From Actinomycetota bacterium (lineage in GTDB: Bacteria; Actinomycetota; Thermoleophilia; Gaiellales; F1-60-MAGs149), in assembly GCA_005798855.1 (NCBI GenBank), contig SYIF01000127.1:1-33020 (forward strand): 33,020 nt of DNA, given 5' to 3'. The notes below the pieces were generated by a model. That model searched no databases. It was not told the origin of the DNA and saw only the letters and a list, made by a program, of their open reading frames with translations. Position 1 is the stretch's first letter; each line of letters starts with the position of its first letter. Below are positions 3 to 25,464 of this stretch, piece by piece. The translations under genes and the position numbers were made by a program.

Positions 3-728
3 CTGGCTGTGCTCGTCGAGACGATGCGCCGCGAGGGTTTCGAGTTAACGGTCGGTAAGCCGCAGGTTGTGACGCGCACGATTGACGGCAAGCGCCACGA
101 GCCAATGGAGCGCCTGGCAATTGACGTGCCGGAGGAGTTTGCTGGCGTCGTGATTCAGCTGCTTGGTATCCGTAAGGGCCGCATGGAACAGATGGTCAAC
201 CACGGTACGGGTTGGGTGCGGATCGAAGAGATCGTGCCGGCTCGTGGCCTGATCGGTTTCCGCACTGAGTTCTTGACCGAGACGCGGGGCACGGGCCAGC
301 TCCACCATGTCCTTGAGGGCTTTGAACCGTGGCATGGCGAGATCCGTTCGCGTGGTAATGGTTCGCTGATCGCCGATCGCCAGGGCCCAGTCACGGCGCA
401 CGCGTTGTTTACGTTGCAGGAGCGCGGCGAGATGTTCGTCGAGCCTGGCGTGATGGTCTATGGCGGCATGGTGATTGGCATTAACGCTCGCAGCGAGGAT
501 ATGGACATCAATCCGACGCGCGAGAAGAAGCTGACGAACATGCGCGCGTCGAGCGCAGACGAGTTGGTCCGCCTCACGCCTGCCCGCCACTTGTCGCTGG
601 AACAGTCGCTCGAGTTTATTGCCGAGGACGAATGCGTCGAGGTCACCCCCGCTGCGGTCCGCCTGCGCAAGGTCCAGCTTGATCCAAACAAGCGAAGACA
701 GGCTGAAAAGGTTCGGAAGGGCATTTAG
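3..728 (+). CDS. typA: TypA/BipA ribosome-associated GTPase, C-terminal part
   Basis: The reading frame is already open at the window edge, so the N-terminal G domain lies outside and only about 241 C-terminal residues are seen. They match the C-terminal half of TypA/BipA: the [10 protein letters not shown] segment, the [19 protein letters not shown] stretch, the [18 protein letters not shown] region and the [18 protein letters not shown] segment that is nearly invariant in this family. TypA is a translational GTPase that binds the 70S ribosome and helps in stress adaptation and 50S assembly (family knowledge). The frame ends at TAG 726-728. The next gene (cysN) converges on it, and the 207-bp gap between them holds strong hairpins. 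Apart from truncation by the window, nothing looks broken. Confidence 0.95.
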
Positions 729-935
729 GTCCTCAGGAACCTTTCTCCGAAGCTTTAGGCGAGTGAGTGTCCCACGCGCAGCGTGGTCTCTTGACACTCG
801 GGGGGACATGACAACCGCGCGGTTGTCATGTCCCCCCTGGATCGACGCTACGCAGCTGATTGCGCTTGGGTTCGTCTGCCCCGCTAGAACCGTGGGACGC
901 GAGGATTCACGGACCGCCCTGCACGCGCACGCGCT
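729..935. other. Convergent intergenic gap typA/cysN with hairpins
   Basis: This 207-bp gap separates two convergent genes. It holds a 6-bp stem with a GCA loop (CCACGC 772-777, GCGTGG 781-786) followed by a perfect 38-bp palindrome at 800-837. The remainder (838-935) shows no convincing ORF or promoter. The hairpins are well placed to act as a bidirectional terminator, although no T-run follows them. Confidence 0.6.
800..837. repeat. Perfect 38-bp palindrome, possible bidirectional terminator
   Basis: Each 19-nt arm reads GGGGGGACATGACAACCGC outward to centre, and the other arm is its exact reverse complement, with no unpaired centre. It lies between the convergent typA and cysN genes. A second 38-bp palindrome at 21712-21749 has the same arm length and the same GACAT pentamer at arm positions 6-10, which suggests a dispersed repeat family rather than a one-off terminator. 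Confidence 0.75.
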
Positions 936-2192
936 CTACCCAGCGAGTACGTTGCTGACCATCACTGCGGCGACGCTGCGGTTGGTCGCGGGGTCGATCA
1001 GCATCAGGCTTCCCAGTGCGCGATTGTCGGCGTACGTCTCGAGCACGAGGGGCTGAGCCGCAAGGATCGAGACGACGCCGAGATCGTTAGCTTCCAACAC
1101 ATCGGTGGGAACGTGCTCCATCGTGTCGAGCTCGAGGCGCTCGTGGAGTTCTTCGACGATGACGGGGACCGTGCGAGTGCTCTGTCGAGCCTCGAGGCGA
1201 GCGGGGATTGTCAGCGGCTGCTCGTCGAGCCAGGCAACGGTCGCGCGAATGCGAGTCGCGACGAGTGGCGGTTCGGCAGCCAGCGCGATGACGTCGCCAC
1301 GGGAGACGTCGATGTCGTCTTCGAGGTGGAGCGTCACGCTGAGTGGCGCGCTGGCACTTTCGCGCTCGTCGCCAAGCACGTCGATGCGAGCAATACGCGA
1401 TGTCGCGCCAGATGGCAGGGCCACAATCTCGTCGCCGACGGTGACAGCGCCACTGTCGATCCGGCCTGCGAGACCGCGAATGTCATGCGTGCCTTCGTCG
1501 TGGCGAATGACCCACTGGACAGGCATTCGGAAGGCCGTTTCGATGACGGGTGGGTCTAGATCGTGCAGGACCTCCAGGACCGTCGGGCCGTCATACCAGG
1601 GAGTTTCGGGCGAGTGCTCGGTGAGGTTGACGCCGTTGAGTGCCGAGAGTGGAATCGCGGTGATCCGCGGGCCGTCAATCTGAGCAGCGGACGCAACCAA
1701 CTCGTCGGCGATCTCGATGAAGCGCGCCTCGTCGTAGTCCACAAGATCGATTTTGTTGACACAGGCAATCACGTCACGCACGCCGAGCATGCCGCAGATC
1801 GCAAGGTGTCGACGCGTCTGCGCCGTCGTGCCGTTCTTCGCATCGACCAGCAGGATCGCGGCATCCGCACCAGCAGCGGCCGTCACCATATTGCGCGTGT
1901 ACTGCACGTGTCCAGGCGCATCGCCAAGCAGGATGCGCCGGCCATTGGCGTCGAATGAGCGGTAGGCAACATCGATTGTGATGCCCTGCTCGCGCTCGGC
2001 GCGCAGACCATCCGTCAGCAGCGCCAGGTCGATACCTTTGCGGCCACGCTTACGACTGGCCTCTTCGACGGCCTCGATCTCATCGCCACGTAGATGCCCG
2101 GTCTCGTAGAGCAAGCGGCCAATCAGCGTGCTCTTGCCATCATCGACCGAGCCGACAGCAACAACGTGGAGCTTCGGTGTTTCGACTGGCAT
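936..2192 (-). CDS. cysN: Sulfate adenylyltransferase large subunit (GTPase)
   Basis: This 418-residue protein is the regulatory GTPase of ATP sulfurylase. With CysD it couples GTP hydrolysis to formation of adenosine phosphosulfate (APS) from sulfate and ATP in the cytoplasm. Visible motifs are the P-loop GSVDDGKS (about 14-21), the switch region ending GITID (70-74), DAPGH (91-95) and NKID (146-149), followed by EF-Tu-like beta-barrel domains. There is no fused APS kinase (CysC) domain, which fits the APS-type reductase upstream. The length is at the short end of the family. The ATG at 2192 shares one base with the cysD stop (TAATG), so translation is probably coupled. It is the last gene of the cysH-TauE-cysD-cysN operon. 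Confidence 0.95.
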   Translation of the reverse strand: MPVETPKLHVVAVGSVDDGKSTLIGRLLYETGHLRGDEIEAVEEASRKRGRKGIDLALLTDGLRAEREQGITIDVAYRSFDANGRRILLGDAPGHVQYTRNMVTAAAGADAAILLVDAKNGTTAQTRRHLAICGMLGVRDVIACVNKIDLVDYDEARFIEIADELVASAAQIDGPRITAIPLSALNGVNLTEHSPETPWYDGPTVLEVLHDLDPPVIETAFRMPVQWVIRHDEGTHDIRGLAGRIDSGAVTVGDEIVALPSGATSRIARIDVLGDERESASAPLSVTLHLEDDIDVSRGDVIALAAEPPLVATRIRATVAWLDEQPLTIPARLEARQSTRTVPVIVEELHERLELDTMEHVPTDVLEANDLGVVSILAAQPLVLETYADNRALGSLMLIDPATNRSVAAVMVSNVLAG

Positions 2193-20583: not shown

Positions 20584-20616
20584 ACGTTGCTTTGGGGTCT
20601 GACCCCAAGGCAACGT
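20584..20616. terminator. 33-bp hairpin between convergent genes
   Basis: Arms of 15 nt (20584-20598 and 20602-20616, one G-T wobble pair) close a 3-nt CTG loop, with the core GGGGTCTGACCCC. It fills most of the 51-bp gap between the amine oxidase and the LLM oxidoreductase, so it is a likely bidirectional terminator. The decamer GACCCCAAGG of its right arm also occurs exactly 40 bp upstream, inside the amine oxidase C-terminus (20561-20570). Confidence 0.65.
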
Positions 20617-24361: not shown

Positions 24362-24366
24362 CCGCC

Positions 24367-24459
24367 CGAGTGTACGGCAACCCGAGTGGCACGCCGACGT
24401 CACAAAGGGGTTTGACCCCTTTGTGACATCCCGCCACCCCACCACCTGCCGTACACTCG
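24367..24459. promoter_or_regulatory. Symmetric divergent glycosyltransferase promoters on one dyad axis
   Basis: Outer arms CGAGTGTACGGCA (24367-24379) and TGCCGTACACTCG (24447-24459) are exact inverted repeats, and each holds a TACACT -10 box. Inner arms GTCACAAAGGGGT (24399-24411) and its complement (24415-24427) form a 13-bp stem with a TTG loop. Both pairs share exactly the same centre (24413). Each -10 is 24 nt from the inner palindrome. Start codons follow the -10 boxes by 7 nt (24361) and 8 nt (24466). Confidence 0.75.
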
Positions 24460-24465
24460 CCTGCA

Positions 24466-25464
24466 ATGACTGACCGCCTCCGCATTCTCCACGCGCCCCT
24501 CAATATCGCGGGTGGGCCTGAGGCGTTGAGTGCCGGACTGAACGAGTTTGGCTGTGACAGTCGACTGATGGTCTTTACGCGTCAGCCGTTTCGCGACGGC
24601 TCCGATATCAACCTGCATTTGCGGCAGGGTGGTGGCCCGGTCAACCTCGCGCTCAATCTCCCCAAGCAGGCCTACGCGTTGGGTCGCGCGATTCCGAACT
24701 ACGACATCTTCCAGTTCCACTTTGGCGTCACGATCGTGCCCAAGCGCATCAATCTGCCTCTGTTGGGCCGGCTCGCAAAGGGTCGCGTTTTCCACTTCTG
24801 GGGCTCGGACCTCCGCGACGCACCCGTGTCGAAATGGGATTACGCACTCCGCCATGCCGACGCCGCCGTCGTCGGCTCGTACGCGATTCTGCCGCGTGCG
24901 CCGCGCGCAGCCGACTGGCCCGACTACGACGTCGTACCGCCCGGGATCAACCTCGAGACCTGGCAGCCCGCTGTGCCAACCCCTGGCAAAACGATTCGCA
25001 TCGTGCACGCACCATCGCGACGGCGCTCAAAGGGCACGGAGGCTGTACTCGAGGCGGTCTCCACGTTGCAGAGCGAGGGCGCTCCGATCGAGCTCGATCT
25101 CGTCGAGAACACGCCAAACGATCAGGCGCGGCTGCGCTACGCCGCGGCCGACCTCGTAATCGACCAGCTCAACGTCGGCTGGTACGGCCTCTTCTCGATT
25201 GAATCGATGGCGCTCGGCAAGCCCTGCATCGTCCGTCTCGACCCCGAGGCGGTCGCCGCAACCGAGGCCGCCTTCGACACCAAGATCCCTCTGGTCAACG
25301 CGGACAAGGACACGCTGGTTGAAGTTCTGCGGGGTCTCGTTCGCGAGCCTGAGCAGCTAACCGAGATCGGCCACGCCTCGCGCGCCTACGTTGAGGCAGT
25401 GCACGGCCACACGGCAATCGCCGAGCGGATGCTCAACGTCTATCGCCGTCGCGGATTGGCGTAA
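24466..25464 (+). CDS. Glycosyltransferase, GT4-like, shorter form
   Basis: This 332-residue GT-B protein starts MTDRLRILHAPLNIAGGPEALSAGLNEFG. It contains FHFWGSDLRDAP, VVPPGINLETWQP and HAPSRRRSKGTEAVLEAV (start of the donor-binding half), then GWYGLFSIESMALGKPCIVRLDPEA, which places the conserved glutamate E of the E-x7-E region. Family members move a sugar from a nucleotide donor onto a growing glycan. It is shorter than the divergent neighbour, and the proteins are alike only at MTD-x-LRIL at the start. No Shine-Dalgarno is present; TACACT stands 8 nt before the ATG. Confidence 0.85.
   Translation: MTDRLRILHAPLNIAGGPEALSAGLNEFGCDSRLMVFTRQPFRDGSDINLHLRQGGGPVNLALNLPKQAYALGRAIPNYDIFQFHFGVTIVPKRINLPLLGRLAKGRVFHFWGSDLRDAPVSKWDYALRHADAAVVGSYAILPRAPRAADWPDYDVVPPGINLETWQPAVPTPGKTIRIVHAPSRRRSKGTEAVLEAVSTLQSEGAPIELDLVENTPNDQARLRYAAADLVIDQLNVGWYGLFSIESMALGKPCIVRLDPEAVAATEAAFDTKIPLVNADKDTLVEVLRGLVREPEQLTEIGHASRAYVEAVHGHTAIAERMLNVYRRRGLA

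Follow-up and report, generated by a model that had tools for sequence, protein, structure and literature searches.

The closest described systems are TIRYT/TIRtron elements, in which TIRYT genes carry untagged terminal repeats, some of them self-complementary (Di Nocera et al. 2013, PMC3733652). The self-complementary repeats form families of moderate size, as exemplified by ORF 1152 of S. maltophilia K279a (PMC3733652). In the classification of Quentin et al. (2018, PMC6006769), 20 of 26 TIRYT examples belong to subclass 2.1 of TnpAY1, which equals group 1 of Bertels, and the study reports that REP-like sequences were not found for this subclass. The double-foot REPs of subclass 2.4 are symmetric palindromes that could come from the central deletion of an inverted REP dimer (PMC6006769), and Bertels and Rainey (2011, PMC3116915) mention, as an unpublished observation in SBW25, that REPIN singlets arise via a deletion between two REPs. 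Group 3 REPs are perfect palindromes recognized by a HuH RAYT; they have a total length of 16 or 10 nt with an interruption of 3–4 nt, and the first is preceded by GTAG (PMC8266576, 2021). A literature search on REP-associated tyrosine transposases with palindromic repeats in Actinobacteria retrieved no report.

The window analyzed here is a stretch of 33,020 nt (contig SYIF01000127.1, assembly GCA_005798855.1) from an Actinomycetota bacterium of the lineage Thermoleophilia; Gaiellales; F1-60-MAGs149. Our main reading, to which we assign a probability of roughly 85%, is that its palindromes are REP-like non-autonomous repeats, each family being cognate to a HuH/Y1 tyrosine-transposase relative of the RAYT/TIRYT type, and that the perfect palindrome most likely arose from the collapse of a pair. 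The relevant features of the window are:

3 to 728, plus strand: C-terminal part of TypA/BipA, left neighbour of palindrome 1
800 to 837, no strand: family-1 palindrome (palindrome 1), core AACCGCGCGGTT, between the convergent typA/bipA-like and cysN-like genes
838 to 865, plus strand: outward tail TGGATCGACGCTACGCAGCTGATTGCGC, read by eye, of a type found beside some family-1 copies
936 to 2192, minus strand: CysN-like sulfate adenylyltransferase large subunit, right neighbour of palindrome 1
20584 to 20616, no strand: fourth palindrome ACGTTGCTTTGGGGTCTGACCCCAAGGCAACGT, similar by eye to the flanks of HuH genes in G006:C16 and G009:C166
21712 to 21749, no strand: family-2 palindrome (palindrome 2) with one mismatched pair, between divergent genes; its family is shared with the flanks of G000:C23:13164-13865
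24399 to 24427, no strand: third-family palindrome GTCACAAARGGGTYWGACCCYTTTGTGAC, counted with up to 3 mismatches

Only these four palindromes exceeded the threshold in the window. Palindrome 1 was confirmed to be a perfect palindrome of 38 bp with 19-nt arms and no loop; 100 first-order Markov sequences matched to the window in length and composition gave a longest loopless perfect arm of 13 nt (mean 8.2). The initial annotation had also described palindrome 2 as perfect. Its coordinates hold, but 1 of its 19 pairs is mismatched; the orthologous palindrome in the relative G009 is perfect. The pentamer GACAT is indeed present at arm positions 6–10 of both, and the reported geometry, with palindrome 1 between convergent and palindrome 2 between divergent genes, is correct. 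The divergent neighbours are genes for an F420-dependent LLM oxidoreductase and for a protein with a carbamoyl-phosphate-synthase-type ATP-binding match. The window had no Rfam match at gathering scores. The exact tail motif CAGCTGATTGCGC occurs once in the window, and a tail resembling that at 838–865 was read by eye in G005 as well. A related tail motif has 12 places in the own genome, 10 beside a family-1 palindrome, one beside a half palindrome (C19:6763) and one beside none (C18:3536). The idea that the flank motif is a free target site is not supported, because 10 of its 12 places adjoin a family-1 palindrome.

Palindromes 1 and 2 are both dispersed repeats, but each belongs to a family of its own. 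Family 1 has the form GGACATGAC...GTCATGTCC and family 2 the form GCGACATTCT...AGAATGTCGC; the reversed, uncomplemented pattern served as control in each case. Family 1 was counted with GGACAYSACN{6,14}GTSRTGTCC, a broadened version of a stricter pattern that had matched in only 3 of 61 genomes. The number of family-1 places was 84 in the own genome (G000, a bin of 1.93 Mb in 142 contigs, 72% complete) and 302 across 8 of the 13 genomes of the genus (84, 57, 84, 53, 16, 4, 3 and 1), against 0 for the control. Outside the genus, family 1 is nearly absent: of the 399 class genomes sampled, 386 do not belong to the genus, and 8 of these had one match each, while the control gave one match each in 2 of the 386. 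Family 2 was found at 9 places in G000, 2 in G005, 9 in G009 and 6 in G006, while the other nine genus genomes and the control yielded none. The third family, counted with up to 3 mismatches, has 12 places in the own genome and 51 in G009. The proposal of the initial annotation that the palindromes belong to a dispersed repeat was thus borne out. It had named two findings that would speak against this, only two copies in the genome or arms that are not conserved in close relatives; instead, many copies were counted and the arms are conserved. Its view of the two palindromes as sister copies had to be abandoned, as they flank different transposase relatives and are linked only via the homology of these proteins (31% identity).

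Nine contigs of G000 (C129, C50, C77, C105, C137, C126, C44, C8 and C21) have an end at most about 50 bases from a family-1 palindrome, probably because the repeats interrupted the assembly. At the intergenic site that carries the family-3 palindrome in the window (24362–24478), G005 (L008) has a triple family-1 composite. The composites at L005:1439-1594 and L008:1439-1594 are nested structures of 156 bp, in which terminal inverted repeats enclose a central palindrome; with some flank, their RNA folds have predicted energies of -136 and -151 kcal/mol.

A protein query detected 17 HuH genes in 8 of the 13 genus genomes, including one in the own genome. A search with PF01797 (E 1e-3) gave matches in 6 of the 13 genomes and missed the HuH gene of the own genome. 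Flanking palindromes are present at all 17 genes, at three of them partly or at a relaxed threshold only. A palindrome above the first threshold was found on at least one side of 16 genes and on both sides of 12. L050 (G006:C12) has only weaker palindromes, clustered, on both sides; at L047 and L049 (G003:C5 and G011:C207) one side passes the threshold and the second has a weaker palindrome; and at L040 and L048 one flank is missing at a contig end. The orientation of a flank cannot be told when the palindrome is perfectly symmetric. Palindromes above threshold are concentrated at the genes: the 10.8 kb adjoining the 17 HuH genes contain 38 (3.5/kb), whereas more distant parts of the same loci have 3 in 21.4 kb (0.14/kb) and eight control loci have 3 in 31.9 kb (0.09/kb).

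The families differ in the gene that they flank. A HuH gene beside pyrR in G005 has a family-1 palindrome on both sides, and a homologue in G006 (69%) has one on the side that is present in the contig. The HuH gene of G000 (C23:13164-13865) sits between two family-2 palindromes, and the third family flanks a HuH gene in G009. The protein query detected no family-1 HuH gene in the assembled own genome. However, contig C129 starts inside a family-1 palindrome just upstream of pyrR, which is the position of the G005 gene, and true absence and an assembly gap are therefore indistinguishable. The HuH genes found in G009, which has 84 family-1 copies, go with other palindromes, and in G008 (16 copies) the protein query found no HuH gene.

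An alignment of 16 of the proteins, which left out the 17th (G002:C383), shows no variation at the two HuH histidines or at the tyrosine. Y1_Tnp was matched by 8 of 10 proteins scanned against Pfam, 7 of them at or above the cut-off. The family-2 protein of G000 and its relative in G005:C71 had no Y1_Tnp match at E 0.05, and the assignment of the G000 protein is based on homology and an NCBIfam match below the cut-off. All seven of the 17 proteins tested with NCBIfam REP_Tyr_transpos scored 40.5–68.2 bits, under the cut-off of 80 bits. C-terminal HTH-like matches were present in all 10 of the 17 proteins scanned (best E 9e-5 to 0.04, all below Pfam cut-offs). The transposase relatives of families 1 and 2 are 31% identical. 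The GACAT common to both families may go back to the ancestor of this transposase clade, because related HuH genes in G005 and G011 have flanking palindromes of the GGACATG type. The WQ of 4er8 (E. coli TnpA_REP), presumably the published W94/Q95 near the GTAG guide, aligned with the WQ of L052 in phmmer. Of the 16 aligned proteins, 3 retain WQ and 13 have other residues in its place.

Distant relatives were collected by scanning contigs with an alignment of nine of the 17 HuH proteins, and the best 80 of 533 confirmed relatives were taken. Among these 80, 72 have both flanks, and 56 of the 72 have an exact inverted repeat of at least 12 nt between the two sides, which includes GGGTC or GACCC in 44 of the 56. 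A self-complementary flanking repeat was detected twice among the 72, by script at L145 (a Sterolibacterium MAG, palindrome with 30-nt arms) and by eye at L190 (a Thermoleophilia MAG, ACGGGGACTGTCCCCGT), and 13 of the 72 have some palindrome scoring at least 10 on a side. Self-complementary flanks are thus rare among these best 80 of 533 relatives, unlike in the genus.

The gene context of the palindromes was determined with our own, non-standard gene caller. The 50 family-1 clusters examined comprise 25 between convergent, 12 between tandem and 2 between divergent genes, one overlapping a weak ORF and 10 at contig edges; the corresponding numbers for the 12 family-2 sites are 2 convergent, 5 tandem and 5 divergent. 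Among the 39 intergenic family-1 sites for which both neighbouring genes were called, 25 are thus convergent, compared with 4 of the 16 window gaps of at least 30 bp. This bias, together with a predicted RNA hairpin that is very stable whichever strand is transcribed (-37.4 and -36.8 kcal/mol, z -7.4 and -7.7), would fit bidirectional hairpins of the intrinsic terminator type that were selected between convergent genes. Nevertheless, we consider this explanation rather unlikely. The T-run after the hairpin is absent on both strands, just 2 of the 12 family-2 sites are convergent, and the same convergent gap lacks such a palindrome in G012 and G001. Moreover, a terminator function leaves unexplained the identity across unlinked loci, the inverted pairs, the linkage to HuH genes and the near-confinement to the genus. 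The convergent bias allows a side role as terminator. The typA/cysN gap contains different palindromes in G007 and G010, and in G010 (L068) it has a tandem array of CTTTGCTTTGGGGTCAG-like units.

Comparison of orthologous sites revealed that a single palindrome and an inverted pair can occupy the same position. At the site of palindrome 1, G005 has an inverted pair in the same flanks, with another core. At L093 the pair is found in G000 and G006, and a single palindrome with a 60-bp gap, core to core, in G008, whereas at L117 G000 has the single form and G009 the pair. At each of the three sites the single palindrome corresponds to the two outer arms of the pair joined together, at L117 and in the window with base differences. 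The three sites were noted among the orthologous pairs inspected, which do not amount to a systematic survey; there are also pairs with the same state in both species (e.g. L115/G002 and L112/G009). Based on this state difference, the perfect palindrome of the window is most likely a collapsed inverted pair, although the direction and mechanism of the deletion are inferred. The same three sites can be read in the reverse direction, with the perfect palindrome as an empty target and the inverted pairs as palindromes with a central insertion, and the outer and inner arms of the pairs do differ. By eye, however, many spacers look mutually unrelated and no conserved inserted element is evident, which makes this reversal quite unlikely.

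The collapse of pairs does not obviously explain most of the singletons. In the 65 of the 84 G000 places that were examined, 30 clusters away from contig edges are solitary and 11 have two or three copies. When edge copies are included, 20 of the 38 solitary copies are perfect palindromes, compared with 4 of the 27 clustered ones (Fisher p 0.002); the mean pairwise differences over 30 positions are 3.7 for solitary and 4.3 for clustered copies. The doublet, which is the main and better conserved form in REPINs, is neither in family 1. One identical perfect palindrome accounts for 17 of the 30 solitary copies away from edges, and remnants of a partner beside solitary copies are not in excess (3 of 30, control 3 of 30). 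Taken together with the replacement of WQ in 13 of 16 proteins, these results suggest a tentative extension, for which we claim only a limited likelihood: the unit that is spread by a GTAG-blind HuH enzyme might be the solitary two-fold symmetric palindrome and not the REPIN pair.

There are two loci at which genes in synteny encode diverged proteins and are flanked by palindromes that differ between the species. One is the pyrR locus, where the homologue in G003 (42% over 238 aa) is flanked by a different palindrome, which has 23 copies in G003, 11 in G011 and none in the other 11 genomes; G003 still carries 4 family-1 places. In the stretch compared upstream of pyrR, such a palindrome is absent from G007 and G001. 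The other locus holds the family-2 gene of G000 and its syntenic counterpart in G005:C71. The two HuH proteins are 50% identical, the neighbouring SDR-type protein is 95% identical, and the flanking palindromes differ, with GGGCCCGGGCCC common to both. The initial annotation had considered sites of a DNA-binding protein, and this remains acceptable in the sense that the cognate HuH enzyme is the likely binder of the palindromes. In contrast, operator or architectural sites for a host protein on double-stranded DNA are highly improbable despite the near-perfect dyad symmetry and the weak C-terminal HTH-like matches of the HuH proteins themselves, as the palindrome differs between species along with the local HuH protein at the two loci, the extragenic dispersal is wide and only 2 of 39 family-1 sites lie between divergent genes.

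The enzymes and palindromes are of an already known kind (RAYT/TIRYT), and the repeats of the genus are a variant of it. They share with TIRYTs and subclass 2.1, as far as the cited accounts describe these, a HuH-tyrosine protein and inverted repeats that flank the gene and are untagged, the latter as seen in family 1, where tags were looked for; the HTH-like C-terminal extension may be shared as well. In contrast to these accounts, none of the 17 genes found in the genus is without a flanking palindrome, several families exist side by side, of which the three counted range from 9 to 84 places in G000, and orthologous sites differ between single and pair. Dispersed extragenic palindromes, inverted pairs and a cognate, fast-evolving RAYT are also features of the REP/REPIN-RAYT systems (Nunvar 2010, PMC2817692; PMC3116915). 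Compared with the REPs and REPINs of these sources, the GTAG/CGTC tag is absent, clusters mostly consist of a single copy, and such solitary copies are no more diverse than clustered ones. In the 130 feet (6 nt each) of 65 family-1 copies, GTAG, CGTC and GACG did not occur and GTGG occurred twice; the double-foot REPs, as described, keep GT[AG]G feet. In comparison with the described group 3 REPs, the palindromes of the genus have longer arms, no or a very short loop, and no tag.

Based on position and copy number, we propose that each family is cognate to the HuH/Y1 relative whose gene has the same palindrome as flank. By analogy with E. coli TnpA_REP and IS200/IS605, the enzyme might recognize the palindrome as a single-strand hairpin in lagging-strand DNA and might spread palindromes or inverted pairs to intergenic DNA by copying or moving them. 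At 800–837, the middle of a pair would have been deleted between its two self-complementary cores, which are direct repeats of one another, so that outer arm was joined to outer arm.

In summary, for the TIRYT branch, which was described in 2013 and left open in 2018, the genus offers several coexisting pairs of enzyme and palindrome that differ together between sister species. These coexisting pairs make the cognate recognition of symmetric, untagged palindromes directly testable. In addition, the orthologous sites document the state difference expected from a step that others have proposed, from an inverted REP pair to a perfect palindrome.
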